This document shows, one piece after another, positions 1,221-38,352 of a stretch of 44,507 bases of DNA. Below the pieces are notes generated by a model. That model searched no databases, was not told the origin of the DNA, and worked only from the letters and a program-made list of their open reading frames with translations. The stretch is from assembly GCF_028858535.1 (NCBI RefSeq), contig NZ_JAPMOU010000044.1, positions 1 through 44,507 of the forward strand, in the 5' to 3' direction. A program made the position numbers and the translations under genes. Source of the stretch: Spartinivicinus poritis (GTDB lineage Bacteria; Pseudomonadota; Gammaproteobacteria; Pseudomonadales; Zooshikellaceae). Each line of letters opens with the position of its first letter. Position 1 is the stretch's first letter.

Positions 1221-2711
1221 ATGAATAAAACCATTGTTGTATTAGGTATTTTCATAATATTGAGTGGTTGTAGCATTCATCCTATTCCTATCACTCCTCA
1301 GCAACACCAACAACGTTTAAGCCAAGACCAATCAGCATTACAAACTAAACAACAGCCACTCACCCAGCCCCTGGCTTTATCAGAGGCAATGGCCAGGGCT
1401 ATTCGCTATAATCTTAATCATCGCATTAGCTTATTACACGGAGCACTTTCGGCTAAAGAGTTAAATACCGCCCGTTTTGAGCTGCTTCCAAAACTTACCG
1501 CACGAGCTGGTTATAACTATCGATCCAATCTAGATGCATCCTCTAGTGAGTCAATCGAAACAGGCACTGAAACATTAGAGCCATCCACATCCTCTGATCG
1601 AGAAATCAGTGAAGCCAGTTTATCCTTCACTTGGAGTGTACTGGATTTTGGCCTGTCTTATGTTCGCGCCAAACAACAAGCTGATCGTTATTTAATGGCT
1701 AAAGAACATATCCGTAAGACTGCTCATCAAATTATGTTGGATGTGCGTTCTACCTATTGGCGAACAGTCGCCCAACAGCGCCTGATGAAGCACATCGATA
1801 GAGTAATGGCACAAGCAGAAAATGCGCTAAGGGACAGCGAAGTCATCCGTCAAAAAAGACTACAATCGCCTTTTACTGCACTAACCTATCAACGAGATAT
1901 TTTATTAATTATTCGTGAATTACACATTTTACGAAAAAATGTACTCCCAGCAAAAGCCGAACTGGCAAAGTTAATTAATGTACTACCCAGCAGCAATATT
2001 AAAGTGATAGAGCCTGCTGCAAACGCCATGTGGTTACCAGACCCACCTATGTCACTTAGCGAGTTCGAGCAACATGCATTATTGCATCGTCCTGAGCTAA
2101 TAAACGAAGCCTATAAAGAGCGAATAACTGCCGCTGAAACCAAGGCTGCAATGTTACAACTACTCCCCCATTTAAAGTTACAAACAGCCGGCTATTACAA
2201 TAGTAATGATTTTTTAGTCAATCAGCACTGGGGGACCATCGGCATTGATGTCAGTTATAACTTACTGGGCACATTTTCCCAGTTGAGTCGACTGAAAGTC
2301 GCTAAAGAAAAACAAAACATTATTCGATTAAATCGGTTAGCCATGCATATGGCTGTATTATCTCAAATACACATTGCCTGGCAGGCATATTATCAAGCCA
2401 TTGATGAGTTTAAAGCAGCCAGTCACTTTAGCCAGATCGAACAGAAAATTGTTCACCATGTGAGAGTCAATGCCAGAAAAAAACGCTTAGGTAAAAATGA
2501 ATTATTAAGGGCAGAACTCAACCATTTGCTTGGCAAATTAAGACGTGACTTAAGCTATGCAGATGTACACAACACATTTGGTCAGTTACTCGTCGCTTCC
2601 GGCATTGATGTACTACCTACAACAATAACAGATAATACCTTAGCTGGTTGGGCAAACGGTATAGAGCAAAAAATGCTTGAATTAGGTGACAAAATAACTT
2701 CAGCTGACTGA
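1221..2711 (+). CDS. TolC-family outer membrane efflux/secretion lipoprotein
   Basis: A 496-residue outer-membrane factor. The N-terminus is a short signal ending in the lipobox 'LSGC', so it is probably lipid-anchored. The rest has the TolC pattern: two half-repeats of long Ala/Leu/Gln-rich helices (about residues 50-260 and 275-460), each interrupted by a short beta-strand segment. Such proteins trimerise into a channel-tunnel that spans the outer membrane and periplasm and docks onto HlyD-type adaptors. Three adaptor-domain proteins follow immediately. It is probably the exit channel for the adhesin encoded just upstream. The gap to the next gene is 20 bp, so they are very likely one operon. 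Confidence 0.85.
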   Translation: MNKTIVVLGIFIILSGCSIHPIPITPQQHQQRLSQDQSALQTKQQPLTQPLALSEAMARAIRYNLNHRISLLHGALSAKELNTARFELLPKLTARAGYNYRSNLDASSSESIETGTETLEPSTSSDREISEASLSFTWSVLDFGLSYVRAKQQADRYLMAKEHIRKTAHQIMLDVRSTYWRTVAQQRLMKHIDRVMAQAENALRDSEVIRQKRLQSPFTALTYQRDILLIIRELHILRKNVLPAKAELAKLINVLPSSNIKVIEPAANAMWLPDPPMSLSEFEQHALLHRPELINEAYKERITAAETKAAMLQLLPHLKLQTAGYYNSNDFLVNQHWGTIGIDVSYNLLGTFSQLSRLKVAKEKQNIIRLNRLAMHMAVLSQIHIAWQAYYQAIDEFKAASHFSQIEQKIVHHVRVNARKKRLGKNELLRAELNHLLGKLRRDLSYADVHNTFGQLLVASGIDVLPTTITDNTLAGWANGIEQKMLELGDKITSAD

Positions 2712-2731
2712 TTAAAACGCGTGAAGGCCAT

Positions 2732-3538
2732 ATGCAGTTATTATTCATTCATTCTATTTTTTTTCTGCTAATAACCCATATTAGCCAGCCTGGTATTAAT
2801 TTCAGTTCAGCTTCAACCACTCTCACTCAAAACCTTACTTACCAGCAACCATTAGCTAATGAAAGTTCTCCTTTATTTCAACAATCCTTAATTAGAGGAA
2901 TTATCAAGTCTCAACATCAAGTGGTGCTTTCCTCGCAAATAGGCGGCCAAATTACTCAACTACCGCTGGGTATTGGCAAAGCCTTTAAGCAAGGGGAGTT
3001 ATTAATGCGATTGGATTGTCGTCACTATCAGGCAGAACTTCAGGCAACAAAAGCAAAATATCGGGCCAAACTAAAACACTACCAAAACAGCCAATCACTG
3101 TTGAAGCATAATGCAATTGGTCAATTAGAAGTAGCGCTTGCCAAAGCAGAGCTGGATATTGCTAAGACAAGCATTACAAAAGCCAATATCAGTGTTCAAG
3201 GCTGTCATATTAAAGCACCTTTTGCAGGTAAAGTTGCTCGACTGCTGGCACAGCCCTACCAAAGTATTAAAGCTGGCGATGCCATTATTGAAGTAATCGA
3301 TCATCAACATTTATCTGTAGAACTGATTATTCCTGACAGTTTTTATTTCAAAGTCAAGCCAACCACATTACTTATTTTCCAGATTGATGATAGTCCACAT
3401 CAAATCTCCATCAGCATTACCCAAGTCAGCCCCACAATTGACCCTGTCAGCCAGACCTATCGCGCTTTTGCCCGAATTCATCAACATACTAATAAGCAGC
3501 TTGTAGTTGGTATGAGTGGCACCGCTCTAGTCAAATGA
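2732..3538 (+). CDS. HlyD/RND-type periplasmic adaptor (membrane fusion protein)
   Basis: A 268-residue protein with an N-terminal hydrophobic signal (residues ~1-20), a biotinyl-lipoyl-like half motif near residues 60-95 ('VVLSSQIGGQI', 'FKQGELLMRLDC'), a short alpha-hairpin (~95-140) and a second lipoyl half ('IKAPFAGKVARLLAQP') followed by a beta-barrel region. This is the standard adaptor architecture, though compact. It would bridge an inner-membrane partner and the TolC-like protein upstream. The stop codon overlaps the ATG of the next gene (ATGA at 3535-3538), which implies translational coupling. Confidence 0.85.
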   Translation: MQLLFIHSIFFLLITHISQPGINFSSASTTLTQNLTYQQPLANESSPLFQQSLIRGIIKSQHQVVLSSQIGGQITQLPLGIGKAFKQGELLMRLDCRHYQAELQATKAKYRAKLKHYQNSQSLLKHNAIGQLEVALAKAELDIAKTSITKANISVQGCHIKAPFAGKVARLLAQPYQSIKAGDAIIEVIDHQHLSVELIIPDSFYFKVKPTTLLIFQIDDSPHQISISITQVSPTIDPVSQTYRAFARIHQHTNKQLVVGMSGTALVK

Positions 3539-4890
3539 ACGATATAAATACCGGCATTAAACAACATAGCCCAAAATATATAACAAACTTAACTCGATTA
3601 GTTCAACTGGAAAATCAGGTTCGTCAAACGAAGTCAATTAAGGCTCTACAATTTCTTGCAGTTAACCATACCAGACAACTATTGCGTTATGACCAAGCTT
3701 TTTTAGTTTTTCGCCACCGGCACCAATGGCGATTAGTGAGTATAGCCAATACAACCGTTGTCGATACACACAGTCCTTTAGCTTGCATCATCAAAGCAAT
3801 CACTCAATCCCATTCGACTTTTTTTAAACAATCTGCCCTTAACCCTAATATCCAGCAACTTTGCAAGAATACTGACAATAGCTATCGTCAATTAATGATG
3901 CCTCACATACTATATCAGCCGATTAAGCTACCAACAGGTAAGCTAGTCGGAGGATTATGGCTTGGACGAGCCCAAAAGCAGTGGCAACCCGCTGAGCAGA
4001 CATTATTAACTCACTTATCAACAATATATGGACATGGCTTTCAAGCTTTGGGGCTCAAAGATAAACAACTGTCCAGACTTACCCCAAAAAAATACATTGC
4101 TTGCTGTATAGCACTAATTTTTCTATTTTGTTATCCAGTCAGTTTAACCATTACTGCTCCAGCTGAAATCGTTGCTCGCACACCAACTATTGTCAGCGCT
4201 CCTATCAATGGCGTTATTAAACAGTTATGGGTTAAACCCAATCAATCTGTCGCATCCCAGCAAAAATTATTTAGTTTTGAAACAACAGCGCTTGCCAATC
4301 AGTATGCCATTAGCCAACAACAACTAAATCTTGCTTATACCCGCTATCATCAAGCACTACAGATCTCATTAAAAAAATCTTTGGTTGAAAATAATATTGC
4401 CCTTTATCAAGCTGAAGCTAAGCTGCGTTTAGCCGAGTCAAAATTTACTCAAGCCCAACTGGATCAAGCTGAAGTAGTAGCCACTCAAGCAGGCATTGTA
4501 CAATTTTCTTCAGTCAGCGACTGGCAAGGGCGCCCTGTCATCACTGGTGAACAAGTAATGACGATTAGTGATCCTCAAGATGTAATGGTTAATATCTATG
4601 TACCAGTAAAAAACCACACCATTTTCCCTGAAAAAGCTCAAATTAAACTGTTTTTAGATGCTGTGCCTTTACAACCATTGCAGGCAACCCTACAGCAGGT
4701 CAGTTTTACAGCAGCACCACACCCTCTTGCTGGTTTAAGCTATCAGCTCTCAGCTTCATTGGACAATAAACACACAAAAGCGCAAATTGGTTTAAAAGGT
4801 ACCGCAAAAGTTTACAGCGAGCCAGTATCACTGTTTTACTATTTATTCAGGCGGCCAATTACAGCTATAAGACAGTATTTGGGGGTTTAG
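3535..4890 (+). CDS. GAF-like domain fused to an inner-membrane HlyD adaptor
   Basis: 451 residues. Residues ~15-175 have no signal peptide and read as a GAF-like cytoplasmic domain, including a stretch near 125-145 with 'LPTGKLVGGLWLGR'. A single transmembrane helix follows at ~187-207. The C-terminal half is a HlyD-type adaptor with lipoyl halves ('VSAPINGVIKQLWVKPNQ' and 'VVATQAGIVQFSS') around a short coiled coil. The topology puts GAF in the cytoplasm and the adaptor in the periplasm, so it could pass a cytoplasmic signal to the export channel. It overlaps the upstream stop codon by 4 nt, and only one base separates it from the next gene. The GAF call is by pattern; the HlyD call is firm. 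Confidence 0.75.
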   Translation: MNDINTGIKQHSPKYITNLTRLVQLENQVRQTKSIKALQFLAVNHTRQLLRYDQAFLVFRHRHQWRLVSIANTTVVDTHSPLACIIKAITQSHSTFFKQSALNPNIQQLCKNTDNSYRQLMMPHILYQPIKLPTGKLVGGLWLGRAQKQWQPAEQTLLTHLSTIYGHGFQALGLKDKQLSRLTPKKYIACCIALIFLFCYPVSLTITAPAEIVARTPTIVSAPINGVIKQLWVKPNQSVASQQKLFSFETTALANQYAISQQQLNLAYTRYHQALQISLKKSLVENNIALYQAEAKLRLAESKFTQAQLDQAEVVATQAGIVQFSSVSDWQGRPVITGEQVMTISDPQDVMVNIYVPVKNHTIFPEKAQIKLFLDAVPLQPLQATLQQVSFTAAPHPLAGLSYQLSASLDNKHTKAQIGLKGTAKVYSEPVSLFYYLFRRPITAIRQYLGV

Positions 4891-4891
4891 T

Positions 4892-6976
4892 ATGCAAGCT
4901 CTCTGCTTACGTCAAGACTTGCAACTTTTCCGCGGCCCTGAGAGTATCAACGGCGAGCCTAGTTGGTCACTATATGATCCTGCTAAAAATCAATATTTTC
5001 GCATTAGCTGGCGAACTTATAATATTATCCAGCAACAGTTTTATTCTGCTCCCTCTGCAACAATCAACCTACACAAAAATGTTCAAACAACCACTGATGA
5101 AATTAACCAAGTTAAATCTTTTTTAGTTAAACACCAACTGGTTACTGACTCGTATCAAAACTACTCTCCCACTAACAGTAACCCTTTAATCCAACTATTA
5201 AAGCATTATTTATGTTGGCAAATCCCACTATGGCAGCCAGACCGCTTTATTAATACTTTATTACCTTTGGTAAAAAAGCTTTTATCACCTTATTTATTGT
5301 ATTGCTGGTTGATAATGACCTTTATTGGCAGCTTTTGGACGTATAAGCAATGGGATATTTTTGTCAATAGTTTTTCCTACTTAACTCAACCAACTGGCAT
5401 CGTGCTATTTATTCTATGTTTGTTATTTACAAAATTTGCCCATGAGCTAGGTCATGCTTTTGCAGCAAAATACTACCAATGCAAAACTAACAGTATTGGT
5501 ATTGCCATTATTTTACTATGGCCACGTTTTTACACTGATACCAGCCATAGCTGGCGCTTGGTTAAGCGCAATCAAAAAATAGTTATTGATGGAGCAGGGG
5601 TATTAACTGAGTTCTTTATCGCCGGCTTAATGATCTTCTTGTGGCACTTTTTACCAACCGGTCCACTGCAAAACTGTGCAGCTTTTATTGCGACTAGCGG
5701 ATTAGTATTAACCTTGATCATTAATTTAAACCCTTTTATGCGCTTTGATGGTTACTATATACTCTCTGATTGGCTTGCTATTGACAACTTACAAACTAAA
5801 GCATTTATTTGTGGTAAGTGGTTTTTACGGAAATTCTGTTTAGGGTTAACTACTCCTTGCCCGATTCAACTCCCCCTCCATACTGTTCGTTTACTTGTGC
5901 TTTATGCCTGGCTAACCTGGTTTTTTCGTTTAATCGTATTTTTTAGTATTGCTTTGTTGGTTTATTCTTTTTTCTTTAAGACATTAGGCATAATTTTATT
6001 TTCACTTGAAATTTACTGGTTAATTTTACGCCCAATTTTTTCTGAACTAAAACAGTGGTGGCAGCTGAAGCAACTTGTCAAAAAAGAACTTATCAAGAAA
6101 CCACAGCAATGTTTGTTGCCTGCCACCATTGCTATCATTGTCTTGATATTATTAGGCTATCCTTTCAGTTGGCCTACATTTATCCCTGCACTCTACCTTC
6201 CTCAGCAAAGCCAACAACTGTATACCTTTACTGCTGGAAAAATCACTGCCATACATGTCAATCATCAACAATCAATTACTGCTGGAACCCCTATTCTTAC
6301 CTTAGAAAACCCTCTATTAAGTCATCAGATTAATGTTAGCCAATTGAAAATCGGCCATCTTCAAGAACAGTTACGTCAAACCATTGGCACAGATCAGCTA
6401 TTGTTTAATCGTACCCTACTTTTAAAACAATTAGCTCAAGCAAAGCAACAGCTAGATGGTTTACAACAAAAGCGTGATTTACTTGTTTTAAAAGCACCCT
6501 ATACAGGCACAGTTTACTGGCATAACCCTGCTCCACATATTGACCAATGGGTAAACTCTCAAAATGCTTTAGGTCGACTTATTACGTCAAAACATACCTA
6601 TTTAACGGGATACAGCATAGCAACAACGCTCAATCAACTAAGTGACACTAAGTCAGGCATATTTTACCCCGACATACCTGAACTCTCCCCAATAAGGGTA
6701 AAATTACATCAAGTCAGCATTATTAATTCCCCCTTCCTTGAGCACACTTTTTTTCAATCAATATTTGGTGGCCCTATCGCGGTACGATTAAATCCGAATA
6801 ACCAAGCTGTACCGGAGCAGCCTATTTATCCTGTCACCTTTCAAGCAATAGAATATCCTAATTACCCTACCCAGATGATTAATGGCACAGTAAAAATTGA
6901 TGGTAATGAACAAAGTTTAATCACTCGAATTTATAATCAGATCTTCGCTGTTTTAATTAGAGAGTCTGGTTTTTAA
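4892..6976 (+). CDS. M50 site-2-type zinc metalloprotease fused to a HlyD adaptor domain
   Basis: 694 residues in three parts. Residues ~1-88 form a soluble N-terminal domain that begins with 'LRQDLQLFRGP' and looks PqqD/winged-helix-like. Residues ~130-420 are a multi-span membrane region with the M50 signature: HELGH at 184-188 and the third-ligand motif 'NPFMRFDGYY' (Asp286), so the zinc site is intact. Residues ~425-694 are a periplasmic HlyD-like part with two lipoyl halves ('YTFTAGKITAIHVNHQQ', 'LVLKAPYTGTVYWH'). In this family the protease part sits in the inner membrane. Here it takes the operon position an ABC transporter would occupy in a type I secretion system. Substrate and direction of action are unknown. 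Confidence 0.85.
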   Translation: MQALCLRQDLQLFRGPESINGEPSWSLYDPAKNQYFRISWRTYNIIQQQFYSAPSATINLHKNVQTTTDEINQVKSFLVKHQLVTDSYQNYSPTNSNPLIQLLKHYLCWQIPLWQPDRFINTLLPLVKKLLSPYLLYCWLIMTFIGSFWTYKQWDIFVNSFSYLTQPTGIVLFILCLLFTKFAHELGHAFAAKYYQCKTNSIGIAIILLWPRFYTDTSHSWRLVKRNQKIVIDGAGVLTEFFIAGLMIFLWHFLPTGPLQNCAAFIATSGLVLTLIINLNPFMRFDGYYILSDWLAIDNLQTKAFICGKWFLRKFCLGLTTPCPIQLPLHTVRLLVLYAWLTWFFRLIVFFSIALLVYSFFFKTLGIILFSLEIYWLILRPIFSELKQWWQLKQLVKKELIKKPQQCLLPATIAIIVLILLGYPFSWPTFIPALYLPQQSQQLYTFTAGKITAIHVNHQQSITAGTPILTLENPLLSHQINVSQLKIGHLQEQLRQTIGTDQLLFNRTLLLKQLAQAKQQLDGLQQKRDLLVLKAPYTGTVYWHNPAPHIDQWVNSQNALGRLITSKHTYLTGYSIATTLNQLSDTKSGIFYPDIPELSPIRVKLHQVSIINSPFLEHTFFQSIFGGPIAVRLNPNNQAVPEQPIYPVTFQAIEYPNYPTQMINGTVKIDGNEQSLITRIYNQIFAVLIRESGF

Positions 6977-7160: not shown

Positions 7161-8114
7161 ATGATCAAAAATAAAGCATTACTTATCTTTAGCGTTAGCA
7201 CCACATTATTTTGTATTAATAGCTATGCAGAAGAGTCAGCCGAAACCAATAATAAATGGGATGGCTGGTTATCAGGTGAAGGGGCTTATACTGATGGTAG
7301 CTCGTTTGGCGACTTCAATTCATTTATTCCGCTAACCCAGGATGACTCAGGCCTTTCTTATTTAAATATTCTGGCTGAAGCTGACGATGACTTTGCAGAA
7401 GGGCAAGCTGGTTACGGTTACCGGCAAATTATTAATGAAGACTGGGCAATCGGTGGTTATGGTTTTCTTGGCAATAAACGCACTGAACATAACAACAATT
7501 TTTACCAACTAAACTTTGGTGCTGAAGTAGTTTCATTTGACTGGGATTTTAGATTTAATTTCTATATTCCGATAGGCGATAAAGAAAAAGAAGTCAGTCG
7601 CAATGCAGCCACTAACCAAATTCGAAAAGAATTTGCCTATCACGGTGCTGACTTAGAAGTAGGTTATCGGCTCCCTTTTTGGGATGAAACTGATGATAGT
7701 CAAATGCGCATTTATGGGGGAAGTTATTATTTTGATGCTGATGGCGCCGAACACATTGCTGGTGGTCGAGTTAGACTGGAATATGACATTGCCAATATCG
7801 TTAGCAGTATTCCTGGTAGTAGCATTACCTTAGGTGCAGAATATCAGCATGATAATGTCAATAAAGAAACTAATCTATTGACCGCTGCCTTCACCGTACC
7901 GTTTGACTTTTTCAGAAGCAATAAACAAAGTCAATATAACAGCTTAAGTCCTTTGGAAAAGCGCATGAGCCGCATTAGATCAAGGCGTGTTAGTGTAACA
8001 ACCAGTGTGGAAACAGACCCTCTCACTACAGTTACTGAGCCAGCACCACCTGTAGTCGTCCCTCCACCGTTACCAGAGCCAGAACCAGAGCCTTTGCCAG
8101 ATGAAGCGCCCTGA
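7161..8114 (+). CDS. Intimin/invasin-type (inverse autotransporter) beta-barrel with proline-rich tail, no passenger
   Basis: 317 residues with a signal peptide (~1-23, 'INSYAEE' at the cleavage region). Residues ~25-265 alternate short amphipathic strands with aromatic girdles, for example 'GQAGYGYRQIINEDWAIGGY' and 'QLNFGAEVVSFDWDFRFNFY', which matches the inverse-autotransporter barrel (IAT_beta) seen in intimin and invasin. Instead of Ig-like passenger domains the protein ends with a Pro/Glu-rich tail (~290-317, repeated PEPEP). It lies 184 bp behind the export operon and shares its strand. It may anchor or present the adhesin, but that is inference. A Rho-independent terminator follows. 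Confidence 0.7.
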   Translation: MIKNKALLIFSVSTTLFCINSYAEESAETNNKWDGWLSGEGAYTDGSSFGDFNSFIPLTQDDSGLSYLNILAEADDDFAEGQAGYGYRQIINEDWAIGGYGFLGNKRTEHNNNFYQLNFGAEVVSFDWDFRFNFYIPIGDKEKEVSRNAATNQIRKEFAYHGADLEVGYRLPFWDETDDSQMRIYGGSYYFDADGAEHIAGGRVRLEYDIANIVSSIPGSSITLGAEYQHDNVNKETNLLTAAFTVPFDFFRSNKQSQYNSLSPLEKRMSRIRSRRVSVTTSVETDPLTTVTEPAPPVVVPPPLPEPEPEPLPDEAP

Positions 8115-8238: not shown

Positions 8239-8529
8239 CTAAAGCTTTTTCAAAATATTGCGTCCTTTTGCTGTGAGATAAATCAACTTAAACCTTTTAT
8301 CTTTAGCATCTTGCTTCACACGAATCAGCTGCTCATCTGGATTGCCTGCCCTCCCCTCTTCTAGCCGCCGAATTGTGGTGGCTACATTTTTTTCGCCAAC
8401 CTCCATTCGTTGAGCAATTTCAGATACAGAGCTACCTTCATTGTCTCCAATTGCAGCTAAAGTAGCGAGGGTACGTACGGTAATACGAGGGTATTTAAGT
8501 GACAGGTTGATTACTTTTTTAGTGTTCAT
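8239..8529 (-). CDS. Small MarR-like winged-helix regulator
   Basis: 96 residues from the chosen start, the ATG at 8529 (Met-Asn-Thr-Lys-Lys). The frame is open for 21 more codons upstream, but that extension is hydrophobic and unlike a regulator. The protein has a helix-turn-helix ('GSSVSEIAQRMEVGEKNVA') followed by a wing and 'KRFKLIYLTAKGRNILKKL', the typical end of the MarR winged helix. It lacks the long dimerisation helices of full MarR proteins, so it is closest to the compact winged-helix type. Its target is not evident. It lies tail-to-tail with the beta-barrel gene and upstream of nothing on its own strand. Confidence 0.7.
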   Translation of the reverse strand: MNTKKVINLSLKYPRITVRTLATLAAIGDNEGSSVSEIAQRMEVGEKNVATTIRRLEEGRAGNPDEQLIRVKQDAKDKRFKLIYLTAKGRNILKKL

Positions 8530-8653
8530 AATTGGCACTTCTATTACGGATATAAGTACCAATAAGCATGGCATGAAATTGTACAATATCAAGGTTTGAG
8601 CCTTCTAAAACCCGCTTTTTGCAAGTAAGTAGGTACTCAAACCTCTTATAGGA

Positions 8654-11556: not shown

Positions 11557-11866
11557 TTGAGGACAGAGCTTACAAGCTATTCCACCAATGTCGTATATAC
11601 ACTCAAAACACAAAGTGCTAACACTATATAGGCTGCGCTAGTTAGTTATAATTAGCGTGTCTTTTTGAGAGACATTTATATCAGCAGCCATCAAAGCAGT
11701 GTAAAGCTGTATCATCTCCCAAAAACTGCATAATAATTTGAAGAAATTATTACTGCAATGCTGTTTAGACTAACCCTACTCGTAGTCATATTGTTGTCAG
11801 AGATAGATCAGCAGTCTATAAGTGGTATAGCCACTATCTGGCACTACACAAAACAAGGATAAAGCG
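11557..11866 (+). promoter_or_regulatory. Leader region of the TOMM cluster with several dyads
   Basis: This 310-bp stretch separates the NAD regulator from the precursor gene. The clearest structure is at 11727-11757: TGCA-T-AATAATTT-GAAG-AAATTATT-AC-TGCA, an 8-bp perfect hairpin flanked by matching TGCA arms, which could be an operator or the 3' end of the upstream transcript. A smaller dyad AGTGG-TATAG-CCACT (11821-11835) lies 31 bp before the precursor ATG. A possible promoter is TTGTTG (11791-11796) with TCTATA (11815-11820), 18-bp spacing. No gene is seen here. Confidence 0.4.
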
Positions 11867-12025
11867 ATGGAAAATAATATCGAAAAGGATTTTCACAAAA
11901 AACTAGATGATGATTTATTTGAAATTACAGTCCTTCAAGAAAACACCACACAACATGCAGTAGCTGATATTACTGTACCTTGTGGTGCTGGCTGTAACTG
12001 CTCAAACAATGACAACCCCCAATGA
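11867..12025 (+). CDS. TOMM/RiPP precursor peptide (52 residues, Cys-rich C-terminal core)
   Basis: The ATG at 11867 follows AAGGA with 7-base spacing and the stop overlaps the next ATG (ATGA, 12022-12025), so it is coupled to the cyclodehydratase gene. The 52-residue product has an acidic, helix-prone leader (residues 1-35, with 'DDDLFEITVLQE' as the likely recognition segment) and a C-terminal stretch 'PCGAGCNCSNNDNPQ' (38-52). Cys39, Cys43, Cys45 and Ser46 are the heterocyclisation candidates, with Gly/Asn spacers. It is followed by exactly the enzymes that convert Cys/Ser/Thr to azolines and azoles. The leader/core border is not certain; around 'ADITVP' is likely. No characterised product with this core is known to me. 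Confidence 0.85.
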   Translation: MENNIEKDFHKKLDDDLFEITVLQENTTQHAVADITVPCGAGCNCSNNDNPQ

Positions 12026-13149
12026 AACTTTCATTCAATAGACCGCAGTTAAAGCGCTTTTTAACGGTCTTCCCACTCGCTAATGGCGGGTGGGGTATCC
12101 GTGGTGGAGATGAAGACATAACCCAGATCAGGGCAAAATCTGAACAAGCCTCTGCAGCCATTAGCGAAGTGCTTTCATTGCTGACAGGTCAATATGATCA
12201 AACTACCCTGCTAAACATTTTACAACAACGTCAGATTGATCCATCAACAGCCATAGCGCTGCTTCAACATTTAGATAAATGTACGCTGCTTGAAGAGGGC
12301 CATAGTTATTCCCGCGCGTCTGACTTGCCAAATGCTCATCAAAATCAATTACTATTTTTTTCACGCTTTGCAACAGATGGAGGGCACGCTATGCAAAACA
12401 AGCTGAATAATGCCCATGTAGCTATTATTTACAGTCATGGCGTAGGTACGGCAATGATCAGTCTGCTGCAACGCAGTGGTATTGGTTCTATTTCAGTATT
12501 TTGTGAAAATCAAGATGATATCACTACCCTACAAAATACCTGGCCAGCCCAACCAGATTCAGATAGCCTGGTGACATTTTATCCACTTGATCGACAACAA
12601 CTATTTCCTAACGCTTTTCAAAGTCTGCCTGTCCAGGATCAACCCAATTTATTGATTGTTTGTCGAGATGCGCAAGACCCTGCGTTATGTGAAACCATTA
12701 ATCAATATGCATTAACCCATGGTTTAGCATGGCTATTAGTTCAAGTAGATAATCATCAACTGGTCTGCATTGGCCCTTTATTTTTACCAGGTGATTCCGC
12801 CTGTTATAACTGCTATCAAGGACGTATCTTAGCTAATTTACAATTTCCTGACGAATACCGAGATTTTCAAAACCATTTACGCCAGCAACAAACGACTGTT
12901 CAAGCTGTCGGGCTAACTGCACAGTTTGAAATGATTGCCGGTGTTGCTGTTACAGAAACAATAAAGTGGTTGACTCAATATAACGATGCCAACCTGGTTG
13001 GACGGTTATTAATATTGGATAGCGATACCTGGTCAAGCCAAATACACGATGTGTTGCGATTACCTCACTGCCAGTGTCGTGTAACAGGACCTTCACATTT
13101 TCCATGGAAAGAGGCCAATTATGCAAAACGTTTGGGATCGCAATCCTGA
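12022..13149 (+). CDS. TOMM cyclodehydratase partner (RRE plus degenerate E1/ThiF-like, zinc tetracysteine)
   Basis: 375 residues. Residues ~1-95 have the winged-helix look of a RiPP recognition element that grips the leader peptide. Residues ~130-345 are an E1/ThiF-like fold: 'VAIIYSHGVGTAMISLLQR' stands where the nucleotide-binding glycine loop would be, and it is degenerate, as expected for this family (bacteriocin cyclodehydratase, ocin-ThiF-like). The structural zinc ligands are intact: Cys261/Cys264 ('ACYNCYQGR') and Cys350/Cys352 ('PHCQCR'). It presents the precursor to the YcaO enzyme. It overlaps the precursor gene by 4 nt and the YcaO gene by 29 nt. Confidence 0.9.
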   Translation: MKLSFNRPQLKRFLTVFPLANGGWGIRGGDEDITQIRAKSEQASAAISEVLSLLTGQYDQTTLLNILQQRQIDPSTAIALLQHLDKCTLLEEGHSYSRASDLPNAHQNQLLFFSRFATDGGHAMQNKLNNAHVAIIYSHGVGTAMISLLQRSGIGSISVFCENQDDITTLQNTWPAQPDSDSLVTFYPLDRQQLFPNAFQSLPVQDQPNLLIVCRDAQDPALCETINQYALTHGLAWLLVQVDNHQLVCIGPLFLPGDSACYNCYQGRILANLQFPDEYRDFQNHLRQQQTTVQAVGLTAQFEMIAGVAVTETIKWLTQYNDANLVGRLLILDSDTWSSQIHDVLRLPHCQCRVTGPSHFPWKEANYAKRLGSQS

Positions 13150-14530
13150 AAATACGGACCCGCGGCAAGCCCCAGATGCTTTGATTGACTTACAGGATGT
13201 TCCTCCATCTGACCCAGCCCAAACTATTCGCCGTGCTGCCCCTTTAATTTCTCCACGTACAGGCATTATTCGTACTATTAACCAAGGAGTTTTCTGTCCG
13301 GGTGACCCTGAATGTTTTTCTTTCGGGGTAACTACTTGTGATATTTCCCAGTTTACCAACCAGGCAAATACCAGTAAGGCAGGTGGTGCTGGCCTCACCC
13401 TGGAAGCGGCGTTAGCAGCTACCATAGGTGAAACCGCAGAACGTTATGCCATGTTATTTTACAACCAGGATAATATGGTTTTAGACTCCGCCAAAAATTT
13501 AAAAGATAAAGCCGTTGCACCGGCCTTGATGAGCTTATTATCACCTCAGCAATTAGCCGCTCGCCCGTCAGCTACTCAGTATTTTGATGAAAATACCGTC
13601 ATTCGCTGGGTTTGGGGCTATTCGCTGACTCATCAATGCTGGCGCCTAGTGCCCGCCTCGCAGGTTTATATGAGTTATCAACCTGGGCCAGATGAAGCAC
13701 GTATTGAGTCCAACGCCTCCAGTGGCTTATCAGCTTCTTCCAGTTTTGAAGAAGCCACTTTGTCTGGTTTATATGAAGTAATCGAGCGTGACGCATTTAC
13801 GATTGCCTGGCTGCATCGACGAATTAAACGACAGGTAACTACTAAAAATAACCCTTTAGACTCACTGTTAAATCAACGCTTTCACGCTTCAGATTCGCAA
13901 GTCAATGTTACAGTGTATGATATAACACTGGATATTCCCGTACATTGTAGTTGGGTAGTCATGCGCCGCCCTAGTGAGTTTGGTCCTGTGATTGCTGTTG
14001 GCTCTGCTGCTCGCTTATCACCACAGGCAGCAATGACTAAATCAATTCTAGAAATAGGCCAAACGATGTCCTACCTGCGTTATTTACGTCAGGAAGATGA
14101 AGACTGGCAACCTGCCAGCAATTTTTCAGACATTACTTCATTTGATAAACATTGCAGTCTTTATGTTAAGCAACCTCAATTAATTAATGACACTCTGGCA
14201 AGCTTGCAAAGTTCAAAGCAATCTATAAACGCCTCCACACTAAAAGATCAAAGCACAGGCAGCGTAAAAGGTGATTTATTAAAAGTAGTGGTTTTTTTGG
14301 CCAAGCTTGGTTATGAGACAATTGTCGTTGATATTACCACTGCCGATATCGCCCAGGTTGGACTACGCGTGGTTCGTGTTATTGTACCAGGGTTAGTGCC
14401 TTTGCATGGTAATCATAACTGGCCTTTTTTAGGGGTTAACCGGTTATTTACTATCTCGCAAGAAATGGGCTGGAGCAGTGTACCTACTAATCCAGAATTA
14501 TTAAATCCTCTGCCTCACCCATTTCCATAA
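13121..14530 (+). CDS. YcaO-domain azoline-forming cyclodehydratase
   Basis: 469 residues, the size expected for the catalytic D-protein of a TOMM synthetase. YcaO enzymes phosphorylate the peptide backbone with ATP and cyclise Cys/Ser/Thr to thiazoline/oxazoline. ATP/Mg-binding acidic motifs are visible: 'EAALAATIGETAERYAM' (~95-111) and 'EEATLSGLYEVIERDAF' (~210-226). The protein ends in the Pro-rich tail 'NPLPHPFP', the PxPxP-type C-terminus that organises the active site in azoline-forming YcaO proteins. The ATG at 13121 has an AGAGG site inside the end of the upstream gene. The next gene starts 10 bp after the stop. Confidence 0.93.
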   Translation: MQNVWDRNPENTDPRQAPDALIDLQDVPPSDPAQTIRRAAPLISPRTGIIRTINQGVFCPGDPECFSFGVTTCDISQFTNQANTSKAGGAGLTLEAALAATIGETAERYAMLFYNQDNMVLDSAKNLKDKAVAPALMSLLSPQQLAARPSATQYFDENTVIRWVWGYSLTHQCWRLVPASQVYMSYQPGPDEARIESNASSGLSASSSFEEATLSGLYEVIERDAFTIAWLHRRIKRQVTTKNNPLDSLLNQRFHASDSQVNVTVYDITLDIPVHCSWVVMRRPSEFGPVIAVGSAARLSPQAAMTKSILEIGQTMSYLRYLRQEDEDWQPASNFSDITSFDKHCSLYVKQPQLINDTLASLQSSKQSINASTLKDQSTGSVKGDLLKVVVFLAKLGYETIVVDITTADIAQVGLRVVRVIVPGLVPLHGNHNWPFLGVNRLFTISQEMGWSSVPTNPELLNPLPHPFP

Positions 14531-14540
14531 GGAGAAATTC

Positions 14541-15359
14541 ATGGATGTTATTAAGCGTGAATTGCGTAATAAAATTGGTAGTAATTCTCGAATGCCTTTA
14601 AAAAACGACTCATTGTTATGTGAGTTGTTCCATGAAAACAGTAAGTTTACTGCTACCTCAGCTAAACGTGCCGGCAAAGCAATGCAAGCATTAAACCACA
14701 AACCTGAAGTATTATCGATGATGAGTCAAAGCTATAAGGTTTACAGTTTAGCGCCTAAAATAGCACTATCACTGCCAACGCCAAATAATAATTTGGAAAA
14801 AACCATTGTTAAACGTCGCTCTCTTAGAGAATACTCAGGCGAATACATAACCCTAGAGCAGTTAACTCGTTTATTGTATTTTGCTTATGGCCGAACCAGT
14901 GGTGAGCAATTTAGAGCAGTAGCCTCTGGCGGGGCACTTTATCCACTGGAAATATATAGCATTGTTTTTCGAGTAGCAGGACTAGAGCAAGGTATTTATC
15001 ATTATGGGGCTGATAACCATGTGCTGCATAAAATAAAAACTGGGAGTTTTTCTAATGAATGCAGACAATGTATTTTTATGGATGAAACAGGCGTACAAGT
15101 CGATACTGCTAATGCAATAATTATTTTAACTGCATTATTTGAACGCAGTACAACCAAATATGGTGATCGAGGCTACCGGATGACATTAATGGAAGCCGGT
15201 GAGGTAGCACAAGCCATTAGCCTGAAAGCCGTTGATGAAAACCTTGGCTGCTGTTTACTGGGTGGATTTTTGGATGATAAAGTAAATCAACTGATTGGTA
15301 TTGATGGAACAGTAGAGTCCACATTATTACCCATCGTCATTGGCACCCCCAACAAATAG
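14541..15359 (+). CDS. SagB-type FMN-dependent azoline dehydrogenase
   Basis: 272 residues of the nitroreductase superfamily. SagB-type enzymes oxidise azolines to aromatic azoles. FMN-site motifs are 'KRRSLREYSGEY' (~91-102), 'ASGGALYPLEIYS' and 'TLMEAGEVAQAISLKAV'. The 'TKYGDRGYR' segment carries the Lys-Tyr pair known to be important in characterised TOMM dehydrogenases, so it should be active. A clear AAGGAG site precedes the ATG. It completes a precursor/C/D/B set and implies the final product contains azoles, not only azolines. Confidence 0.92.
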   Translation: MDVIKRELRNKIGSNSRMPLKNDSLLCELFHENSKFTATSAKRAGKAMQALNHKPEVLSMMSQSYKVYSLAPKIALSLPTPNNNLEKTIVKRRSLREYSGEYITLEQLTRLLYFAYGRTSGEQFRAVASGGALYPLEIYSIVFRVAGLEQGIYHYGADNHVLHKIKTGSFSNECRQCIFMDETGVQVDTANAIIILTALFERSTTKYGDRGYRMTLMEAGEVAQAISLKAVDENLGCCLLGGFLDDKVNQLIGIDGTVESTLLPIVIGTPNK

Positions 15360-15417
15360 ATATATAAAAATACAGAAATCGGTGGCCTTATAATCTAAAT
15401 AACAGGAAGCCGCATTA

Positions 15418-18400
15418 ATGACTCACCCCACAATGACAGCAGCTGATATTATCTGCACCCATATTCTAGACCAACAGTTAAATAGAGTCACACAACAAAC
15501 AGCCCATGTATGGCTGCAAGGCCATCAGAGTCAAGCCAGCTCATTATTAGCGGTCATTTGCCAACAGGCTCGTAATAGTGGTGCAATTTCACTTTGGAGT
15601 ACAGGTAATAACCATCTCAAACATCCTTGGAATGTAATTGCTCAACTTGTCATTGAATTAGTGTTGCGACTGGAAACCACCCAACCCGAATTAATTACGC
15701 GTTATGGGGCAGTCATATTAACGTTGGCCCCCCAATTAAAAGACTTATCGGCATTGCAAGGTAAAACAGGTTACCGTGCCCTCCTCGCTGACTTTGTATT
15801 GCAGAATAATTCAGATGCACTTATACAGTTTTATCGTAAACGTGAAATTAAACCACGCATCCAAACCCAACTGGTTAAATTTATTTTTGATGCAGCTACT
15901 GCAGTTGCTCATGAAACTGGATTGCCATTATTCATTTGTATCGAAGATTTCTCTCAAGTCGATTCACTATCAAAACAAGTACTGGATTTATTAGTTCATC
16001 TATCAGAGACCGTACCACTGCATTTATGGGTATGTAGCCAAGCGTTACCCGATACTGCCAACGCAGCTAGCTGGCAACTGTTGTATAGCCATGTTCACTC
16101 AACCTATAATAATGACACAACGAGTGTCGACCACTCTATTCTAGCCTTATTCAATTTTATATATAGTCCTTTACCGGTTCATACCATAAATAATCTATTG
16201 GGTTATGATGCAACAGCAGAGGTACAAACTCTATGCCAAACAGGTTGGTTAAGAGAAGACAAGCGAGGCTTGTGTATTGCTCACCAGGGTATTACCAATA
16301 AGATAAAAGAGTTGCTTATGACCACTGTTAATAACAAACAGCAAGCTTTTTATGCAACTTTATTAGAACAGCAAAAAAATGAGCCAACTGGTTGTGAAGC
16401 ATTTTATTACGCCAGTCAGTTAACTCACTTCCTATCTGTTACTAAAGATTTCAAACAAGCCAATAATGACAATCAACAATCACTTAATAACCTACAATTA
16501 CTTAAAGCCCAAGCAGCAATGCGTGCTTTATGTTATTCATGGAATTTAGCTGATTACCCAACGGCTAGGTATTATGTAGACTGCGCTTTAGCTTTATTCA
16601 ATGAAAATAAATTATCAGATCAGCAGAATAGATTGCTGCTACAAGGTTTGCTAGCTTATGAAGCTGACGATCACCAGGAAGCCCACCAGAGCCTGGAAAA
16701 AGTGCTTGCAGTAGAAAAAGATGCCTTAGCCCAAACAAGATGGCAACATTTATTAGGTCACAACGCTATTTTTGGTTCTGGTGATTACCCTTTAGGTTTA
16801 GATTATTTACAAGCAGCCTTAAATGGCTATGAAACAAAGGGTGAAGCCAACCATGCTATTTATGTGCGTAACAGTATGGCTTTTGGATTATTTCGTAGTC
16901 GCAGTGTAAATGATGTCATTAATTACGAAAAAGAGGTTTTACAACTGGCTCGCTCAACGACTCGTAGTGATTTATTTATAGACAGTATTTTGCAATTAAA
17001 TCTGGCTCGGGTACATACAGTCAATAATGAGTTACAAAGTGCCCTCAATTATCTGCAAAATGCCATTGCAGGCGATAATGGTGATTTATCACCTCTATTA
17101 CGAATGGTATTTCATGCTAAATTAGGCCACCTGAATTTTGCCCTAAAACAATACCCTCAAGCAGTCACTGCATTTTGGCACTGCCTGGAGTTGGCTCGCT
17201 GCCAATCTCTCGAAGGTACTACAGAGCGCTTGCTACCCAGCTTAGGCGAGTTATTTAAACGTTCCGTCGATTCATTAAATACCCAATTGATATTACGTGA
17301 TCGACTAGCACTTGCTTACATACATTTTAACTTAGGGCTTGCTTGCAAACAGGCTGGGCTTCAACCAATCGCTGAAGCCTGTCAGCGACAAGTAGTGCAT
17401 TTATTGCAGCCGATCAACTCCAAGCTGAATGACCAAATCAACAGGGTATTTGCTGAGTCAACCAAAGTCGCTGGCACAACCCATACTATGCATGCCATTG
17501 CCCCCCCACTGCAATCCAAACCAACTGATATAGCAGCACAACTGCAGCAGTCTCCAATGACAGAAGCTATTCATTACCAGCAACTCTCTAACGGTATCAT
17601 TAACAAAGCCGTTGATCTCCTACTAAACAAGCAAGCGATTGCTTGGGTACGCCAAAAAACAGCTACTCAGGCAATGGATACTCTGGTATTGTTTGATGCA
17701 CAAGCGCCCCTTTGCTTAGAAGTATTGAACAACAGTCTAACTAGCCAACCACATAAACAAGGATGCCTGGTCATAGCACCTGGTGATCATTGGTTTTCTG
17801 AGCCCGTTGAACCATTGCCCTGGGTATTACAAGAACGCACCTTACTCAGTGAGCACCGAGCCAAACTACCTGGTCTACAACCAATTAGTATGTTGGTTCA
17901 GGCTCTTAATCCCGATTGGGACACTGAATTATGGGAGCTTGCCCAAGCATACTACCAGCGTAGTGGCTACCCATTACTTGGGGTTGCCTCTTTTAGTCTT
18001 GCTGCTCATGATTTAGTGACACAAACGGATAGCATCATTGGCCAGTTTTTAGAAAGCAATTTAACCTCACTGGTGTATAGTGACTACTGGATTAACAAGC
18101 GCTTTAGTAATGATGCTGCAGAAAACCTATTGCTATTGCGCCCTCGCACCTTCCAAAGTGTTCATATACAGCTAGTGGAGAATAGCCATAACCAGCGTAT
18201 TTGCTTAATTCATAGTAATGCTAACGCAGGAAGTAAAAAGCAACTCTCCGTTGCGGCCGCATTGGCCCCCATATTTCCTCTGTGTGATGGAGCTCATACC
18301 ATCGTAGCAATTGCAACAGCAATGAAGTCACAAATACCTGAACTAACAGCCAATAAGCTGTGTTATTTTTTTCGTACGTTACAACAGCAACAAGTCATCT

Positions 18401-18459
18401 ATTTTGTACACACAACACAGCCATTACAGAATAAGCCAGCTTATGAACCTACTTTATAA
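15418..18459 (+). CDS. Large protein: degenerate AAA/STAND-like ATPase domain plus TPR-like helices
   Basis: 1013 residues without a signal peptide. Residues ~20-260 resemble the ATPase module of AAA_16/STAND proteins: a Walker-B-like 'LFICIEDFSQVDSLS' is clear, but the position of the P-loop reads 'LQGHQSQASSLL', without the GxxGxGK[ST] pattern, so ATP binding may be lost. Residues ~350-680 are helical repeats with TPR character ('HLNFALKQYPQAVTAFWHC', 'LLGHNAIFG'). Residues ~700-1013 are not recognised. It starts 58 bp after the dehydrogenase gene and is the last gene of the run, so it is probably co-transcribed with the TOMM cluster. It could regulate, scaffold or confer tolerance; nothing in the sequence decides this. 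Confidence 0.6.
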   Translation: MTHPTMTAADIICTHILDQQLNRVTQQTAHVWLQGHQSQASSLLAVICQQARNSGAISLWSTGNNHLKHPWNVIAQLVIELVLRLETTQPELITRYGAVILTLAPQLKDLSALQGKTGYRALLADFVLQNNSDALIQFYRKREIKPRIQTQLVKFIFDAATAVAHETGLPLFICIEDFSQVDSLSKQVLDLLVHLSETVPLHLWVCSQALPDTANAASWQLLYSHVHSTYNNDTTSVDHSILALFNFIYSPLPVHTINNLLGYDATAEVQTLCQTGWLREDKRGLCIAHQGITNKIKELLMTTVNNKQQAFYATLLEQQKNEPTGCEAFYYASQLTHFLSVTKDFKQANNDNQQSLNNLQLLKAQAAMRALCYSWNLADYPTARYYVDCALALFNENKLSDQQNRLLLQGLLAYEADDHQEAHQSLEKVLAVEKDALAQTRWQHLLGHNAIFGSGDYPLGLDYLQAALNGYETKGEANHAIYVRNSMAFGLFRSRSVNDVINYEKEVLQLARSTTRSDLFIDSILQLNLARVHTVNNELQSALNYLQNAIAGDNGDLSPLLRMVFHAKLGHLNFALKQYPQAVTAFWHCLELARCQSLEGTTERLLPSLGELFKRSVDSLNTQLILRDRLALAYIHFNLGLACKQAGLQPIAEACQRQVVHLLQPINSKLNDQINRVFAESTKVAGTTHTMHAIAPPLQSKPTDIAAQLQQSPMTEAIHYQQLSNGIINKAVDLLLNKQAIAWVRQKTATQAMDTLVLFDAQAPLCLEVLNNSLTSQPHKQGCLVIAPGDHWFSEPVEPLPWVLQERTLLSEHRAKLPGLQPISMLVQALNPDWDTELWELAQAYYQRSGYPLLGVASFSLAAHDLVTQTDSIIGQFLESNLTSLVYSDYWINKRFSNDAAENLLLLRPRTFQSVHIQLVENSHNQRICLIHSNANAGSKKQLSVAAALAPIFPLCDGAHTIVAIATAMKSQIPELTANKLCYFFRTLQQQQVIYFVHTTQPLQNKPAYEPTL

Positions 18460-19175
18460 AGCCCTAACGTTGGATAATCTCTTGGGGCTCATGAGACAAA
18501 AAACTATGCAACATTAGGGTAAAGCCTCTCGTTGTGTTTAAAAACTTTATTCTGTGTTGTATTAGCGTACTAATCACAACTCATTTTTAAGTTTCACTCA
18601 CGACTGATACTCATTTTTTATAATCTGTGACTTTCTTTAAGGATACACTGAGATTTTTCTATTCTTAAAAACGAAATCTACTACGAACAATATGATACAA
18701 ATTAGCCCACCAAAATTAATAGTTACCAAATAATAACCAAGCGTTTATCACAGAATGCACAACTCCTCCAAGTAAAGCCACTTTAGGTTAATAACTGCAC
18801 ATAAATACCCTGTTTACTCAGGCATAATAAAACCCTAGAAATACAGCAAAACTTTTGATTGAAGCGAATCTAACTAATACTGATAATAAGTTCATAATTT
18901 ATACATTACTAAGAGTTATGGATAAAAAATCAAAAAACAATGTCAGTAAACACAGACTTACATGATGATTTATAAACAGCACTTGTCAGCAGGTTATTTT
19001 ATCCGCTAATTTAAAATTGATTTATTTTTTAGTGCAGTAATTCACAGTATCGCATAACTACTTATTTGATCTTTCTTAAATGAAGGGTGAAAATTACCAA
19101 CCTTTATAAACTGTGAATTAGGTTTAGTTGTGAGTCATTGATACATCAAATAACTGAATAGAGGGTGATCAAATC
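18460..19175. other. Long AT-rich intergenic region with one large dyad
   Basis: About 700 bp without a convincing gene on either strand. Near the end of the TOMM run is an inverted repeat CCCTAACGTTG (18462-18472) / CAACATTAGGG (18509-18519), 10 of 11 positions paired, with a 36-base loop. It is not followed by a T run, so it is a weak terminator candidate. No further structure is evident before the DUF5329 gene. Confidence 0.4.
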
Positions 19176-36857: not shown

Positions 36858-38312
36858 ATGAAAAGTTATTTATTGTCAAGCTTAAGTCTTGCTATTCTTG
36901 TTACTTGTAATGCCACAGCATCTGAAAGCACTGGAGGCTCAAATAAACTCAGCCCCAAAACAATTAATGAAACAAGCCTCAACATAAAAAGCAAATTTAA
37001 TTACCACAACATTTCAGGACAGCTTAAAAGAAAACTGGAAACGACCAACAAAAATTCAACAACAAAAATTTCTGTTAGGCTTTTAGACACTTTGATAAAT
37101 AGCGGTGATACAAACTTTGAAGATGAAGCAAAAGCTGTTTTAAACTCTGCAGGCATACATTATAGTAATTTCAACATGGTAGGAAGCTCACCATTATTTA
37201 CAGTAGAAACTACATATGAGGATATCATTAAATTAAGCAACTCTTCCAAAGATATTTATATCGAGGAAGTTTCACCCAATACAGAAATTTTATCAGAAAA
37301 TAATAGAAGATATCGTACTTCATTTACCCGTAGTGAATATAATGGGCACACAAGTTTCAAAAACCTGACTGGAAAAGGTGTTACTGTAGCTGTTATTGAT
37401 TCTGGCGTAGCCAATGTCCCACAGTTGCCTAATGTTTCTCACTATTGCTTTTCTAAGCATATTGATAAGAAAGGAGAGCCATCCAATTGTCCACAAAATT
37501 ACCCAAATGAAGGAGGCAGTGCTCGTACCATAGATGGCAAACAAGATATTCATGGTACACATGTAGCAGGAACCATTGCAGCTAAACCTCTTAAGGAAGG
37601 AGCCCCTGCTGGAATGGCCTATGATGCTAAAATTATCAGCTTACGTTCTTTACATAAAAATGGTAAAGGATCATCCCTTGACACTATTGAAGCATTAAAT
37701 AAGATTGCATCAGACATTTCTGATGTGGATATCGTTAACATGAGTTTAAGTACCAGTATTTATGCAGCAGAAAACTGTGATGGTATGTTATCAGGATTTC
37801 TAGTTGACTATAAAAAAGCAATTGACAATCTAGCAAGTAAAGGAGTAAAGATTGTAGTTGCTTCTGGTAACAATTATCAAAAAGGCTATGTTGCTTTTCC
37901 AGCTTGCCTTCAAAACGTAATTTCTGTTGGTGCTGTCTACCCTACATCAGGAACAAACGACAGTACAAATGAAAATTATAATAGTGGAGATGTCACAGAC
38001 TTTACCAATTTATCTAAATATGTAACAGTCTTAGCACCAGGTCATAACATAGAATCAACAAATGCAAATTATGATAAAGCTGACCCTAGTACTTTGAAAT
38101 TAGAACTGTCTGGTACTTCTATGGCTGCTCCTTACGTTTCAGCATGTATAGCTAGAATGCTACAGAGAAACCCCAAGTTAACAACATCTGAAATAAAAGA
38201 TATTTTCAAGTATTCGGTTAAACAAGGACATAAAAAGAACGACCACGACATTAATAGGCCTTCGCTAAATTGTGATGATGCACTATTACTAACCCCATCA
38301 TCTAGAGTTTAA
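36858..38312 (+). CDS. Secreted subtilisin-like serine protease (S8)
   Basis: 484 residues. Signal peptide ~1-22. Residues ~50-145 form an I9-like propeptide. The catalytic domain has Asp181 ('VAVIDSGVAN'), His235 ('DIHGTHVAGTIAAK'), the oxyanion Asn338 ('VASGNN') and Ser421 ('LSGTSMAAPYVSA'), so it should be active. Cys197/Cys211 and Cys350 ('FPACL') may form disulphides. The ATG lies 93 bp after copy 1 of the 128-bp repeat. A paralogue with substituted catalytic residues follows 40 bp downstream. Confidence 0.95.
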   Translation: MKSYLLSSLSLAILVTCNATASESTGGSNKLSPKTINETSLNIKSKFNYHNISGQLKRKLETTNKNSTTKISVRLLDTLINSGDTNFEDEAKAVLNSAGIHYSNFNMVGSSPLFTVETTYEDIIKLSNSSKDIYIEEVSPNTEILSENNRRYRTSFTRSEYNGHTSFKNLTGKGVTVAVIDSGVANVPQLPNVSHYCFSKHIDKKGEPSNCPQNYPNEGGSARTIDGKQDIHGTHVAGTIAAKPLKEGAPAGMAYDAKIISLRSLHKNGKGSSLDTIEALNKIASDISDVDIVNMSLSTSIYAAENCDGMLSGFLVDYKKAIDNLASKGVKIVVASGNNYQKGYVAFPACLQNVISVGAVYPTSGTNDSTNENYNSGDVTDFTNLSKYVTVLAPGHNIESTNANYDKADPSTLKLELSGTSMAAPYVSACIARMLQRNPKLTTSEIKDIFKYSVKQGHKKNDHDINRPSLNCDDALLLTPSSRV

Positions 38313-38352
38313 AAACTAGCATTAATCCTTAGCATTTATTCTGGAATTTAAT

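Follow-up and report, generated by a model that had tools for sequence, protein, structure and literature searches.

A probable five-gene azole-peptide cluster in Spartinivicinus poritis with a putative sparse-cysteine precursor and a large TPR-bearing protein

In Spartinivicinus poritis, a compact run of five genes encodes a short peptide, P, three enzymes of the kind that modify azole-containing peptides, C, D and B, and a large protein, G4. We consider it probable that the run P-C-D-B-G4 is a linear azol(in)e-containing peptide (TOMM/LAP) operon, with P as the substrate acted on via C, D and B. The window, meaning the whole stretch of 44,507 nt that was analysed, carries the following features of the run:

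11855-11859, + strand: AAGGA resembling a Shine-Dalgarno sequence, 7 nt ahead of the P start codon (ATG), read from the sequence
11867-12025, + strand: P, putative precursor peptide, 52 aa (open reading frame list, coding-like codon usage, position upstream of C)
12022-13149, + strand: C, 375 aa, a leader-binding protein of the E1/ThiF-like type (passes the TIGR03882 and ThiF cut-offs)
13121-14530, + strand: D, YcaO cyclodehydratase, 469 aa (TIGR03604)
14541-15359, + strand: B, SagB-type dehydrogenase, 272 aa (TIGR03605)
15418-18459, + strand: G4, 1013 aa (weak AAA_16-like N-terminus, TPR middle, carbamoyltransferase-C-like stretch at about 824-894)

All five frames are open, and C, D, B and G4 run without internal stops. 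P and C are joined by an ATGA overlap, the frames of C and D overlap, and gaps of 10 nt and 58 nt separate D from B and B from G4, respectively. A preliminary description of this DNA had reported a 52-residue peptide coupled by ATGA to a ThiF-like partner, followed by YcaO and SagB-type genes, and these frames were found where it had placed them. The span it gave, 11867..18459, owes its end at 18459 to G4, which it did not mention, as it did not mention the TPR gene that occupies the place of G4 elsewhere; the decayed remains in one sister species, described below, were invisible to it.

The three enzymes were compared with family models and solved structures. C matches the model of TOMM precursor leader peptide-binding proteins, TIGR03882, with 57.7 bits (cut-off 36.9) and ThiF with 47.9 bits (cut-off 28.1), while its 64.3 bits against the SagC-family model TIGR03603 stay below the cut-off of 187.65. 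Among solved structures, C alone matches MccB, LynD and TruD, and a profile of 20 C proteins matches MccB, TruD, LynD and PaaA in the PDB more strongly than C alone does; among the matches listed for this profile, PaaA extends furthest towards the N-terminus (from position 51, compared with 79 for MccB). Cys261, Cys264, Cys350 and Cys352 are invariant in the 20 aligned C proteins. A winged-helix RRE in C gave no match in Pfam or NCBIfam, which we count against the azole-peptide reading.

D scores 297.6 bits against TIGR03604 (cut-off 219.25), and its nearest solved structures are LynD (E 5e-32), MusD and TruD. In YcaO proteins, ATP and Mg are bound by stretches of the ExxER and ExxERD type, and for the TOMM members a proline-rich end is important; D keeps both stretches and ends in PLPHPFP, and E104, E107, R108, E219, E222, R223, D224 and PHPFP are invariant in a three-sequence alignment. 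B reaches 129.3 bits against TIGR03605 (cut-off 78.4), contains a KYGDRGYR stretch and matches in the PDB a putative nitroreductase, 3eo7 (E 1e-41), McbC (E 6e-9) and also CyaGox. The active-site motifs had been called intact from the letters alone; support for this comes from the alignments only. As C, D and B all lie above the cut-offs of curated TOMM-specific models, the enzyme set argues for a TOMM/LAP cluster.

Many relatives carry the same cassette. A scan of genome contigs with the three-sequence D alignment returned at least 589 stretches, at least 511 of them relatives, from which the best 79 loci were kept. C, D and B are adjacent in this order in 46 of these best 79 loci, which further supports the TOMM/LAP reading; in 25 of the 79, D and B are neighbours and C is either fused, located elsewhere or not detected at E 1e-3; the remaining 8 are otherwise arranged or cut. 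The preliminary assignment to the TOMM class is thus upheld by both the family models and the recurrence of the cassette.

The window D stands apart from these relatives. Used as a single protein, it found no relative in the scan of genome contigs. Among samples of other genomes, it had no match at E 1e-30 in the order (389 genomes) and none at E 1e-40 in the phylum (397 genomes); in the class, 4 of 368 genomes match at E 1e-20, with 25-28% identity. Its identity to any of 70-80 aligned relatives is at most 35-36%. A tree of 81 D proteins places it on a long end branch (0.99), and it belongs to no starred set that comprises half of the rows or fewer. By tree path the nearest D is that of a Candidatus Cloacimonadota locus (L021, SOKM01000358.1); in AU tests, the pairing with this protein was not rejected (p 0.565), and forcing the window D into the 24-row clade that contains the D proteins of the TPR-bearing loci, which it does not join in the tree, was nearly rejected (p 0.055); both tests used a quick tree of 71 rows, 10 long-branch rows having been dropped, and the group was chosen once the first tree was known. 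The Cloacimonadota locus resembles the run in its P-C-D-B order and in a precursor frame situated where the C frame begins. It differs in that its core consists of two Cys runs (CCCCCCPCCCCC) and its genes after B encode 296 aa or less; the two D proteins are 33% identical, and the leaders are not significantly alike. An apparent likeness between the leader of P and that of this locus was dropped, as 766 of 1000 shuffles reach its score.

We then considered whether P is the precursor. Its C-terminal region, the presumed core (PCGAGCNCSNNDNPQ), holds Cys39, Cys43, Cys45 and Ser46, that is, the three Cys and one Ser previously named as targets, and this sparse arrangement contrasts with the cores of many relatives, which are Cys runs. 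In the flanks searched (11557-12030 and 18460-19175, both strands), P is the sole closed frame of at least 20 aa with three Cys. Its codon-usage score falls within the range of real genes (35% of 129 real 52-codon segments of the window score equal or lower) and is attained by 5% of 121 frames that are antisense or out of frame, a mildly circular comparison given that the codon table was built from genes of the same window. The Shine-Dalgarno-like sequence, the ATGA coupling, the coding-like usage and the lack of another three-Cys frame in these flanks all suggest that P is the precursor.

The equivalent position was inspected in the 45 loci whose sequence extends far enough and whose C lies immediately before D, namely 44 from the best 79 and the plasmid locus L007. 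A small frame with at least four Cys near its end lies upstream of C in 26 of these 45 loci, against 33 of 225 single-base shuffles; the 26 include chance-like frames, for example those of L039 and L040, and P, with three Cys, would itself miss this cut. The excess of Cys-rich frames at this place is again in line with a TOMM/LAP cluster.

Other properties of P count against this reading. P has no match in Pfam and NCBIfam at E up to 1, no homologue among 72,556 plasmid and 50,697 phage records, and no further copy or relative in the rest of its own genome; no match was found in the available literature for the strings of its core or of the TPACCC core of some relatives. A search for related leaders beside YcaO genes had been suggested; in the part that was run, the leader of P was set against 13 other precursors, and no convincing resemblance emerged, with scores reached by 13 to 994 of 1000 shuffles and the lowest counts being 13, 27 and 49. 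Leader kinship with these 13 peptides is therefore unconvincing as a set. Finally, Cys, Ser and Thr make up 7 of the 26 residues in the C-terminal half of P, so that P stays below the 45% Cys/Ser/Thr threshold which Cox et al. applied to annotated small genes, according to the available text of their survey (PMC4603692).

The missing homologues and the low Cys/Ser/Thr share would also fit a situation in which C, D and B work on a true substrate encoded elsewhere, with P being a leader-like or regulatory small frame, and the same survey, in its available text, mentions distant precursors for some TOMMs. We regard this as unlikely in view of the position of P, its Shine-Dalgarno-like sequence and overlap with C, its coding-like usage, its C-terminal Cys and the Cys-rich frame found in its place in 26 of 45 relatives. 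With P as the substrate, the translated peptide, coupled to C via the overlap, would have its leader bound by C, which would present the core to D; D, with ATP, would cyclise Cys39, Cys43 and Cys45, and perhaps Ser46, to azolines, and B would oxidise these azolines, in part or completely, to azoles, with a loss of about 20 Da per azole. Leader removal and export would depend on genes outside the run.

The formation of azoles is predicted from the presence of a SagB-type B. We give a low probability, lower than that of a substrate encoded elsewhere, to the idea that the enzymes install some change other than an aromatic azole, either unoxidised azolines or another YcaO-dependent backbone change. 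D lies far above the cut-off of the TOMM SagD model, its best solved relatives LynD, MusD and TruD are azoline-forming enzymes, and B matches both the SagB model and McbC. In favour of such a product, YcaO proteins are described in the available text of PMC10352776 as also making thioamides and amidines, and the activity of B is itself a prediction.

Precursor-like frames of other kinds were observed in several relatives. In eight cyanobacterial clusters (L066, L068, L074, L077-L079, L081 and L088), frames of 119-125 aa upstream of D carry C-terminal tandem triplets of the CGGC/CRGC type and end in GFGY or GFGH. Three loci (L048, L071 and L084) each have three different precursor-like frames, with leaders resembling IEDLEERSEL or IELLESR and cores resembling ACACTCSCGCTS or CGCSCSCSCTSC. 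In L095, a frame beside the YcaO gene (8247-8618) is made of near-identical repeats, FCTTTNSTMTAM, with EWDTADVS-type spacers, and has the look of a multi-core precursor.

The history of the cluster was followed in the two sister species (G034, locus L018, and G100, locus L019), where it is missing between syntenic flanks. At the syntenic spot of G034, around 5255-5570 of L018, decayed pieces of G4 correspond to residues 312-373 (E 8e-10) and 900-936 (E 1.6e-4) and contain a stop, whereas the gap of G100 holds no G4 relic. No convincing trace of C, D or P was found in the gap of G034, and a B match at the same place (E 0.005) was taken as chance. The decayed pieces between syntenic flanks suggest a deletion in the G034 line. 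G4, and by inference the whole cluster, would have been present in the ancestor shared with G034, and a recent gain as a mobile island is disfavoured, as the syntenic flanks and the G4 relics make loss in G034 the simpler account. This ancestry, like the lack of internal stops in C, D, B and G4, counts in favour of the azole-peptide reading. That the cluster is also silent and on its way out here, as its absence from both sister genomes and the G4 relics in one could suggest, is very improbable given five open frames and a coding-like P.

G4 is the least familiar member of the run. Pieces of the protein match TPR_12 above the Pfam cut-off (E 4e-9) and AAA_16 weakly (E 0.006, 17.6 bits against a cut-off of 32.6), and its Carbam_trans_C match (E 6e-5, about 23.1-23.3 bits) is below the cut-off of 27. 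By phmmer, residues 705-895 align with the C-terminus of a solved carbamoyltransferase (E 0.047). A profile of 15 carbamoyltransferases gave 9.3 bits on G4, compared with 1.7 for the best of 200 shuffles; this score adds up two pieces, 644-739 and 826-896, and the best piece, 826-896 with 4.9 bits, is the only one that fits the carbamoyltransferase C-terminal domain. GPRALG, the stretch used to pick the 15 carbamoyltransferases, and G-x4-GK-S/T are both absent from G4 in motif checks. An active carbamoyltransferase of the NodU/CmcH type finds no support, given the below-cut-off match and the missing GPRALG, and neither does an active ATPase, given the weak AAA_16 match and the missing G-x4-GK-S/T. 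Modelling gave a mean pLDDT of 35 for the fragment 682-1013 alone and of 42 for whole G4 with an alignment, with fair confidence only at about 460-550 and most values below 50; these values, together with the AU result of p 0.055, count against the place of G4 in the azole-peptide reading. No match to G4 was found in 94 other near genomes (E 1e-10), in 397 other genomes of the phylum (E 1e-8) or in plasmids (E 1e-3), the genome sets being samples that overlap with those of the D searches.

Elsewhere, the position of G4 is often taken by another large protein. The gene directly after B encodes a TPR protein in 17 distinct other loci (L064 repeats L005), and these proteins are mutually homologous and mostly 714-814 aa long; the frame of L055 opens earlier and reaches 1121 aa. 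In L057 the TPR gene lies about 5.6 kb from B on the opposite strand, and in L047 a TPR piece of 274 aa follows B. In L049 a papain-like peptidase gene (13382-13858, Peptidase_C70 match) lies directly after the TPR gene, and genes of similar size come after the TPR gene in several other loci of the TPR-bearing clade.

A profile of this TPR family matches G4 at 463-552 with 17.8 bits over 90 positions, and hhalign aligned the family with G4 over 103 gapless columns with a probability of 61%. In the PDB, natural TPR chains reach up to 21 bits over 32 positions with the same profile, and a designed TPR chain 37.6 bits in four stretches. As TPR chains in the PDB reach comparable bits, a specific kinship is short of proof; from these alignments it is plausible that G4 is related to the TPR proteins after B beyond the generic TPR motif. 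The AU test nearly rejects membership of the window D in the corresponding clade, and so the sharing of this place may be convergent.

The TPR gene after B in 17 loci and the 103-column match are our grounds for including G4 in the azole-peptide reading, in which it would probably be a non-enzymatic partner, a scaffold or chaperone for the enzymes or the peptide; the TPR proteins after B elsewhere may play the same role. A more far-reaching view, which we put forward as speculative and rather doubtful, would unite G4 with the TPR proteins that follow B in at least 17 clusters from several phyla: together they would form a single, so far unrecognised fourth component of the azole-peptide machinery, a TPR scaffold of STAND-like type that lacks an ATP site. 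The Spartinivicinus lineage would then have added a catalytically dead carbamoyltransferase-like part to this component, and its machine would mature a core with sparse Cys (Cx3CxCS), different from the Cys runs that make up the cores of many relatives. In the literature available to us on YcaO and tetratricopeptide proteins, no paper on such a partner was found.

Pfam and NCBIfam scans of the run proteins found no peptidase or transporter, in agreement with the preliminary description, and we count this too against the azole-peptide reading. Peptidase_C39 has eight matches in the genome, none of them on this contig. Upstream in the window, an outer-membrane efflux protein, two HlyD-type proteins and an M50 peptidase stand in a row (1221-6976), a possible export system, preceded by a frame at 27-1163, possibly the final part of a larger protein truncated where the contig begins, and followed at 7161-8114 by an inverse-autotransporter beta-domain match (E 4e-11). 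Downstream there are two tandem subtilase-like genes (36858-39879), the second of which scores 22.4 against a Pfam cut-off of 21.8 and may be degenerate. A frame of 314 aa at 41140-42084 appears to resemble the ATPase part of the transcription terminator Rho; it is shorter than the usual Rho and may be a second copy.

Compared with known systems, the run combines familiar and unfamiliar traits. LynD, TruD and MusD, cyanobactin-type heterocyclases, are each matched in part by D and by C, but hold in one chain what is here split into separate C and D proteins, and no match to a PatA/G-like protease-macrocyclase of cyanobactin clusters was found among the run proteins. Neither lantibiotic-dehydratase-type genes nor a pyridine synthase, as in thiopeptide clusters, gave a match among them. 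Clusters with a TPACCC core (for example L005 of Tistrella, L058 and L080 of Pandoraea and L062 of Burkholderia) share the large TPR-bearing protein directly after B; unlike the run, they have precursors longer than P where seen, and six of their TPR proteins that were examined have no carbamoyltransferase match. The families covered in the available text of Cox et al. 2015 (PMC4603692), which describes nearly 1,500 TOMM clusters, likewise have a short precursor, an E1-like C, a YcaO D and a SagB-type B. What sets the run apart from them are the few, spaced Cys of the core, the long lone branch of D, the presence of G4 and the lack of a transporter or peptidase match in the run. A precursor was identified in 46% of the clusters surveyed there and none in 54%, so that a further orphan core is to be expected.

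In conclusion, the cluster is intact and compact, its enzyme kit and chemistry are of a known kind, and the core of P and G4 appear to be new in detail as far as searched. It would add an azole-peptide cluster with an orphan core to the marine genus Spartinivicinus, whose type species was described for red prodiginine pigments (available text of PMC7484904). A cluster of this type would escape a rule based on Cys/Ser/Thr content, and it is compact enough for co-expression testing. That distant clusters repeatedly carry a large TPR gene immediately behind B suggests the existence of a partner protein of azole-peptide enzymes that goes unmentioned in the available text of the 2015 survey (PMC4603692).
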